DNA from: an uncultured Anaerolineales bacterium
GTDB taxonomy: Bacteria > Chloroflexota > Anaerolineae > Anaerolineales > UBA4823
Reading direction: 5' to 3'
DNA: 39,212 nt
Assembly (NCBI GenBank): GCA_903872065.1
Contig: CAIQJJ010000670.1
Location: 1 to 39,212 of the forward strand
Made by a program: the position numbers and the translations under genes. Below are positions 8,307-19,350 of this stretch, piece by piece. A model generated the notes under the pieces. It had not been told where the DNA came from. It saw only the letters and a program-made list of their open reading frames with translations, and searched no databases. Each line of letters begins with the position of its first letter. Positions within the stretch are counted from its first letter, which is position 1.

Positions 8307-8390
8307 CTTATCATAACAATAACATGAAAGAGCGTGGCTTGTCAACCGTTTATAAGAGTTTTCTTGCTTGGGAACGAATTTACAGGCGTT

Positions 8391-8440
8391 TGCAATCCAT
8401 CGTTGAGCAAATGTTTGCATCAGGCAGTTATAAAAATTCT
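8391..8440. repeat. Conserved intergenic element, copy 1
   Basis: About 40 of 50 positions match 19288-19335, with two 1-nt gaps and almost all differences being transitions. Shared blocks include AATCCAT, GCAAA and CAGTTATAAAA. Both copies lie between a divergent gene pair and upstream of a receiver-domain gene. This copy contains the palindrome GCAAA-TG-TTTGC (8408-8419). Confidence 0.6.
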
Positions 8441-8452
8441 AGCCCTTAGGGA

Positions 8453-8487: not shown

Positions 8488-10089
8488 ATGGCTTTCTCTG
8501 TGTTGATCGTTAGCGCCGACTCACTGGTTGGCGAGTCACTTCAGATTGCCTTTGAGCGCGATGGACGCTGCCAGCCGCTTTTTGTGACCCATGGAGCGGA
8601 AGCTCTATCTGTCGCACAGGCGCTTTCTTTTGCTTTGGCGATTTTGGATTACAATTTGTCTGATATCGCGCTGGCCGATTTGGCGCGTGCGTTGTCAAGC
8701 AGCCCTCTCAACTTACCATTGATAGCGATTTTGCCCGATAATGCTCCTGTTGATCCAGGCCCAGAAGATTTCTCTTTTCAAGGTTATCTTTCCAGAAACT
8801 TTGAGGTATCCGATCTGATGCGTATGGTAGAGGTTGTGTTGAATTTAAAAGAGAAAAGATCAGAGAGAACAGCCGCAGACTTTGCTGCGAACGATCCGCT
8901 TTGGCTGCGGGATGTTAACCGCGCCGCGCAGTATCTTACGCGTCTCTCGCTTGAATCAGCAGCCCACGCAGCTTTAATCGTGCGCGGCGATCGGCTGTGG
9001 GCATACGCGGGACAGTTACCCCAGCTTGCCGCGACGCAGTTGGCTGATCAGGTGATCAAATATCACGGAGTAGGCGACCTGGCGCGTTTTATCCATTTGC
9101 CAGCCACCGACAGAGATTACATGCTCTATGCCACTGGCTTGCTCGGTGATTTTACCCTCGCCCTGGCTTTCGATACGACAACCCCTTTTACCGAAATCCG
9201 CTCGCAGGCCGCCAGCCTGGCAAAAGCATTATCTACCCCTCCGCAAGATACTCTGTTTTCTTCTGTAAATGATGCCCCTCCCCAAGCGCCAGTTCCAGTT
9301 CCTTCGGTTGAGAAGCCGCCTGAAGATGGGGCTGATCTGCCGCAATTGGATCTCGGCGATGTCCCGCCGCCTAATCCGGGGCGAGCAAAATATACTCGCA
9401 AGGCGAAACCTTCTGTTCAATCCCTGGATATTGTGGAAGAAGCGCCGCTTAGTGATGCGCCGCCATTAGAACTCGTCCCATCGTTTGGCATAGAATCACA
9501 TCCGACGGCATCGCTCCCGGATGTGAAAGCGCCTCTCAGTGCTGTGGATTTGGCGGCGCAGCCGCTTGAGGAAATGGATACGCGTCCCACAGCAGTCAGC
9601 GCAGTTTCTTCCACCGACGCCTTTTCTGGCGTTCCACTGGAAGCCGCTCAAGGTCTTTCATCGCCCACGATGCCGCGTTTTGATCCTCTAACCCCAACCC
9701 TGGTTAGTTTAAGCTTTGCCTGTGTGTTGACGCCGCGCTTGCCGCAGCATCGCCTGGTGGGTGAAGTGGCCGATTATTTGCCCGACATTGTCCGGCAAAT
9801 TTGCCTGATCTTTGGCTGGCGGCTGGAGCATATTGCTGTCCGCCCAGATTATTTGCAGTGGGTAGTCAGCGCGCCTCCTGTCACATCGCCCAGCTATTTG
9901 ATGCGCATCAGCCGCCAACAAACCTCGCAGCGGCTTTTTACGGTGCTCCCGGCTCTGGCGCGCGAGAACCCCGGCGGCGATTTTTGGGCCCCCGGCTATT
10001 TGATCATCAGCAGCCATCAGCCGCCCCCACCTCAAGCGGTCAAAGAGTTTATCCGGAATGCCCGGCGCTACCAGGGTCTTTCTGAATGA
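8488..10089 (+). CDS. Regulator: pseudo-receiver, roadblock-like domain and inactive IS200/Y1-transposase domain
   Basis: A 533-residue fusion. Residues 1-120 follow the response-regulator fold, with Asp54 (LAILDYNL) at the phospho-acceptor place. The conserved Lys of the KPF motif is missing (GYLSRNFE), so signalling may be atypical. Residues about 130-255 resemble a roadblock/LC7 domain. Residues 256-400 are a Pro/Ala-rich linker. Residues 402-533 match the IS200/TnpA (Y1 HUH) fold in order: GEVADYLPDIV, GWRLEHIAVRPD, VVSAPPVTSPS, then FWAPGYLI and VKEFIRNARR. The HUH metal-binding motif is replaced by Tyr-Leu-Gln (455-457), and the catalytic Tyr is Phe521. It should therefore not cut DNA. 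A DNA-hairpin-binding effector is the likely role (inference). Confidence 0.8.
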   Translation: MAFSVLIVSADSLVGESLQIAFERDGRCQPLFVTHGAEALSVAQALSFALAILDYNLSDIALADLARALSSSPLNLPLIAILPDNAPVDPGPEDFSFQGYLSRNFEVSDLMRMVEVVLNLKEKRSERTAADFAANDPLWLRDVNRAAQYLTRLSLESAAHAALIVRGDRLWAYAGQLPQLAATQLADQVIKYHGVGDLARFIHLPATDRDYMLYATGLLGDFTLALAFDTTTPFTEIRSQAASLAKALSTPPQDTLFSSVNDAPPQAPVPVPSVEKPPEDGADLPQLDLGDVPPPNPGRAKYTRKAKPSVQSLDIVEEAPLSDAPPLELVPSFGIESHPTASLPDVKAPLSAVDLAAQPLEEMDTRPTAVSAVSSTDAFSGVPLEAAQGLSSPTMPRFDPLTPTLVSLSFACVLTPRLPQHRLVGEVADYLPDIVRQICLIFGWRLEHIAVRPDYLQWVVSAPPVTSPSYLMRISRQQTSQRLFTVLPALARENPGGDFWAPGYLIISSHQPPPPQAVKEFIRNARRYQGLSE

Positions 10090-19249: not shown

Positions 19250-19287
19250 TACGAATCTCTAAGGAACAAGATTTGAACCTGACTTTC

Positions 19288-19335
19288 TGTAATCCATTGT
19301 TGCGCAAACGCTGCACCGGACAGTTATAAAATTCT
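19288..19335. repeat. Conserved intergenic element, copy 2
   Basis: Second copy of the element at 8391-8440. Shared blocks are AATCCAT, GTTG-GCAAA and CAGTTATAAAA. It contains the 8-bp palindrome TTGCGCAA. It lies in the divergent region between the SPFH gene and the cheB-like gene. Confidence 0.6.
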
Positions 19336-19350
19336 GCTTCCTAAATCGTG

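Follow-up and report, generated by a model that had tools for sequence, protein, structure and literature searches.

Two intergenic stretches of the window, the 39,212-nucleotide piece of DNA analysed here, resemble one another at 8391-8440 and 19288-19335, and the question that they raise is what such a shared sequence outside genes represents. The first-pass annotation suggested a common regulator, a structured RNA or a spreading element. We consider it highly probable that both stretches derive from a non-autonomous, MITE-type transposable element, as decayed copies presumably mobilised in trans and lodged between genes. The resemblance itself is well founded: of the 50 aligned columns, 40 are identical, two are one-base gaps and eight are mismatches, seven of which are transitions, and copy 1 used as a blastn query against the window recovers the other copy with E = 5e-6, the runner-up match having E = 0.39. 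The divergent setting described for them is also correct, each copy having a minus-strand gene on one side and a plus-strand gene on the other. That both plus-strand genes start with a receiver domain is clear for CheB (E 9e-22) but weak for the Y1_Tnp fusion (17.5 bits, against a Pfam cut-off of 30.2). The small palindrome noted within each copy is real, and takes the form GCAAACGTTTGC in the family consensus. The boundaries, however, were drawn too narrowly, and both stretches lie inside a longer repeat that, with the flanking duplications included, spans 8367-8449 in copy 1 and 19259-19345 in copy 2; its features are as follows.

8367..8449, plus strand: copy 1 with its flanking duplicated bases (profile match 8368-8447, 56.3 bits, E 1.6e-14 in its own genome; alignments)
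8368..8370, no strand: copy 1, apparent left target-site duplication, TTG, decayed from TNA (middle base the same as that of 8446-8448)
8371-8445: copy 1, element proper (GG...CC)
8371..8389, plus strand: copy 1, left terminal inverted repeat, decayed and with a short deletion (left-arm identity to the majority 0.42)
8407..8418, no strand: copy 1, inner palindrome GCAAATGTTTGC (sequence; compared with the family consensus)
8421..8445, minus strand: copy 1, right terminal inverted repeat (alignment)
8446..8448, no strand: copy 1, apparent right target-site duplication, TTA
19259..19345, plus strand: copy 2 with its flanking duplicated bases (profile match 19260-19344, 72.4 bits, E 1.5e-19)
19260..19262, no strand: copy 2, apparent left target-site duplication, TAA (identical to 19342-19344)
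19263-19341: copy 2, element proper
19263..19289, plus strand: copy 2, left terminal inverted repeat (alignment)
19304..19314, no strand: copy 2, inner palindrome GCAAACG-CTGC, one base lost (alignment)
19317..19341, minus strand: copy 2, right terminal inverted repeat, complement strand AGGAAGCAGAATTTTATAACTGTCC (terminal-repeat pattern match C670:19318-19342, one mismatch)
19342..19344, no strand: copy 2, apparent right target-site duplication, TAA

The repeat extends well beyond the window, into a genome whose gene content suggests Chloroflexota. With copy 2 as the query, a search of its own genome (7.49 Mb in 927 contigs) gives a ladder of matches at 73-82% identity over about 80 bp, and a sequence-only profile built from 15 aligned copies recovers 20 full-length ones there (E 4.5e-25 to 1e-11), about seven truncated independent copies, most of which retain the right end, and two more palindromic relatives, C493 (E 3e-5) and C642 (E 0.12). 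Matches on C295 and C665, with a contig-internal start or end, look like overlaps of C735 and C506 and were left out. The total is about 30 dispersed loci, almost all of them intergenic, and pairwise blastn shows the flanks of the copies to be unrelated, with the sole exception of C689 and C392, which have a similar stretch about 1 kb from both copies.

The ends are the most characteristic part of the repeat. Families A and B measure 80-86 bp (the element itself about 78-80 bp), are without coding capacity and are too short for a transposase; family A has the consensus CTNAGGAACAAGATTTAAATAACTTTCCGCAATCCATCGCTAAGCAAACGTTTGCATCGGACAATTATAAAATTCTGGTTCCTNAG. Its termini form imperfect inverted repeats about 25 bp long (GGAACAAGATTTAAATAACTTTCC and GGACAATTATAAAATTCTGGTTCC), with 87% of mirrored cells pairing versus 32-50% when the arms are slid, and the arm pattern matches the own genome 33 times versus once for a backward control. 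In eleven copies the distance from AGGAAC to GTTCCT across both arms is exactly 80 bp. The two more palindromic relatives, which form subfamily B, share arms and length with the others and have a different middle. Transposase genes of IS256-like and IS630-like types are found near these subfamily-B copies (G000:C493:6046-7338 on the plus strand, and C642:3410-3712, L210); as candidate partners these were set aside, with no matching ends seen, and they are probably unrelated. In a few very short forms, about 27-48 bp long, the ends are kept and the middle is nearly absent (G000:C319:12534-12581, C533:15338-15376 and C234:10669-10698), which suggests internal deletions or minimal units.

Immediately outside the GG...CC boundaries lie the bases TNA, usually within CTNAG, and because N varies from copy to copy yet agrees within a copy, these flanks look like duplicated target sites. 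With the end 5-mers taken from the alignments by eye, and several of the copies decayed, N is the same on both sides in 12 of 21 own-genome copies (7.0 expected, p 0.015), and in eight of the ten copies with recognisable ends (p 0.008). Adding seven copies from a second genome, G271 (its subfamily D), brings the agreement to 17 of 28 (permutation p 0.002), and in none of the 28 is N complementary, as a hairpin would require. The terminal inverted repeats, the duplicated target site and the dispersal of copies among unrelated flanks thus support the earlier suggestion of a spreading element. Its ends, duplication and dispersal are transposon-like, and with its short non-coding body it qualifies as a MITE in the sense of PMC3733652 and PMC10969869.

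The copies in this genome appear to be old. Changes among them comprise 172 transitions versus 95 transversions, with G>A and C>T foremost, and conservation is similar throughout, at 0.81 in the left arm, 0.81 in the middle, 0.875 in the inner palindrome and 0.86 in the right arm. The difference between the two arms is not significant (Wilcoxon p 0.19), and the least variable stretch is ATAAAATTCT. Near-even conservation combined with transition-rich change is the pattern of old copies that decay under no strong selection.

Relatives are present in other members of the class. A search of 60 genomes from the same family and order found no copy, and in 396 genomes of the class there are weak but full-length matches in G271 and G438, which belong to another family. 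The scanned 1.44 Mb of G271 has six copies of a 95-bp element, at 97-100% identity to the query copy, and a longer subfamily of about 105-126 bp in about seven copies, to make at least 13 in all. These are intergenic and have arms like those of the own-genome family (TNAGG...ATTAAATAAC) with different middles; TNA matches at both ends in most, and one copy has an off-consensus TTT on each side. The longer subfamily (L225, L227, L253, L262, L266, L274 and L295) has a middle of GAGACTGGAGATTAGAGACT-like repeats that form a fold-back. The 97-100% identity of the six 95-bp copies points to a more recent spread in G271, and the element family is not private to one species and appears to have moved more recently elsewhere. 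Wider searches returned little: an exact-pattern scan of the GTDB genomes found none, a looser two-arm pattern gave five matches there in unrelated bacteria, about the number expected by chance on our own estimate, and the plasmid and phage collections held no match. Viral contigs gave 57 low-scoring matches to a 17-base pattern, which look like chance and were discarded.

We propose that the MITE would have been cut and pasted in trans, long ago, by the DDE transposase of an autonomous element that shared its ends. The transposase may have been IS5/PIF-Harbinger-like, a guess that we make because the target is C|TNA|G; a three-base TNA duplication is also characteristic of the bacterial IS1031 group. 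The copies would then have decayed near-neutrally, persisting where insertion was least harmful, namely between transcription units, and effects on cheB or on the Y1 fusion gene, if any, would be incidental. Searches with patterns of the terminal inverted repeats revealed no autonomous partner for these ends among the contigs of the own genome, whose assembly is fragmented, and no long element so bounded was found in 80 stretches (1.44 Mb) of G271. The own genome has four DDE_Tnp_1 genes, and within the loci read none of these has matching ends.

The proximity of a Y1 transposase-like gene to copy 1 raises a different prospect. The gene at 8488-10089 (plus strand) encodes a protein that begins with a weak receiver domain and, after a long linker, ends in a Y1_Tnp (IS200-like) domain (E 1.3e-12). 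This protein has DYLQWVV in place of the DHIHLIV of the C827 protein, and because the HUH motif thus seems to have been replaced, the Y1_Tnp domain is probably domesticated and inactive. A second long open frame (742 aa) has a partial Y1_Tnp match (28 bits; G000:C152:21712-21921, L157) and is perhaps another fusion. A REP or REPIN-type palindrome moved by an IS200-like Y1 transposase (RAYT), possibly one related to the 8488 fusion, would fit with the two inverted arms, which are REPIN-like, with the location of copy 1 just 40 bp upstream of the fusion gene, and with the presence of three Y1_Tnp genes in the genome. However, no element was found on the contigs that carry the two remaining Y1_Tnp genes, the consensus is without a GTAG or CGTC tag, and the target site is apparently duplicated; Y1 transposition is not known to produce a target-site duplication. 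We therefore regard this explanation as extremely unlikely, and the earlier speculation that the fusion protein is itself the binder meets the same difficulties, with its HUH motif apparently lost, no element beside the other two genes, and a duplicated target that is at odds with IS200-type transposition. A structured RNA or cis-regulatory mRNA element has hardly any likelihood either. The consensus does fold as RNA into one imperfect hairpin (z -1.9) and the relative C493 is very stable (z -6.3), but a hairpin is to be expected because the ends are inverted, and RNAalifold, pair counts and the folding of individual copies provide no support beyond it. Folding of the two window copies does not exceed that of shuffles (RNA z -0.9 and -0.1), compensatory change is almost lacking in the alignment, with double changes in three of 27 pairs against 1.5 in shuffled controls, which perform almost as well, and the window has no Rfam match at the gathering score. 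Neither does a dispersed binding site of one regulator governing signalling genes fare well, and we consider it highly improbable. In its favour, receiver-domain genes follow four of 16 oriented copies (C670 twice, C689 and C492) and another copy (C590) has a hybrid kinase as its neighbour; but when the two founding window copies are set aside, two of 14 facing genes have a receiver domain, p being about 0.07 for an assumed background of about 3% of genes (the genome count is at least 150 scored domains). Among the other neighbours are genes for PEP carboxykinase, formate-THF ligase and an RNA cyclase, as well as uvrC and a NUDIX gene, so that the copies adjoin unrelated genes, which largely undermines the idea of a common regulator of receiver genes, and such a site would leave the 80-bp length, the inverted ends and the duplicated flanks unexplained.

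A MITE origin is compatible with later co-option, in which the right arm TATAAAATTC and the palindrome act in some copies as promoter or operator for the downstream gene, and this we see as a minor possibility. The right arm points towards a gene start in 16 of the 20 full-length copies (p 0.009, the expected fraction being about 0.52), one of these starts (C506) having been read by eye at a contig end, and divergent regions hold eight of the 18 copies with both neighbours known, versus 15% of intergenic bases; both tests are post hoc and have a background of only 57 kb. Such orientation bias and divergent placement are not predicted by simple neutral insertion; they could reflect selection against insertion within operons, or the AT-rich right arm could now and then serve as a promoter. 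Consistent with co-option are the low variability of ATAAAATTCT, the more frequent retention of the right arm in truncated copies, the likeness of the palindrome to a LacI/PurR-type operator, and the promoters that known MITEs such as Correia carry (PMC10969869). Nevertheless, conservation is nearly uniform with no significant difference between the arms, a search within both window copies found no sigma-70-like promoter, several copies have a broken palindrome, selection is expected against insertions inside operons in any event, and the bias is absent in G271, where the right arm faces a gene start in six of 13 copies. More doubtful still is a class-wide superfamily of tiny transposons that keep their ends and TNA target while exchanging their middles, with some older copies recruited as promoter or operator modules.

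We thus favor the two window stretches being old, decayed MITE copies. The lineage thereby gains a described MITE family with defined ends, a target site and subfamilies of different age, which offers a handle for finding the transposase. We also note the warning that intergenic sequence conserved upstream of a pair of receiver genes may be a transposition fossil and not a regulon.

The element is like REP and REPIN sequences in that these too are palindromes with inverted arms, 20-110 bp long and scattered between genes, but it differs in having no GTAG or CGTC tag, a duplicated target and no linked RAYT gene. NuwaII elements, eukaryotic members of the PIF/Harbinger-IS5 superfamily (PHIS), use the target C|TNA|G with what is most likely a 3-bp duplication, as here, whereas the bacterial IS5 set in the same study uses ANT (PMC4482050), and in the present case no transposase is linked to the ends. 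In comparison with the bacterial MITEs Correia/NEMIS, RUP, ERIC, Nezha and QMITE (PMC10969869, PMC3733652), the present element is very short (about 80 bp) and its sequence matches nothing found in the plasmid and phage collections or in Rfam, but it shares with them a short non-coding body, terminal inverted repeats of 15-30 bp, target-site duplication, intergenic location, tens of copies and the absence of a transposase of its own. As a MITE family it is ordinary in kind and new in sequence, with relatives across the class.
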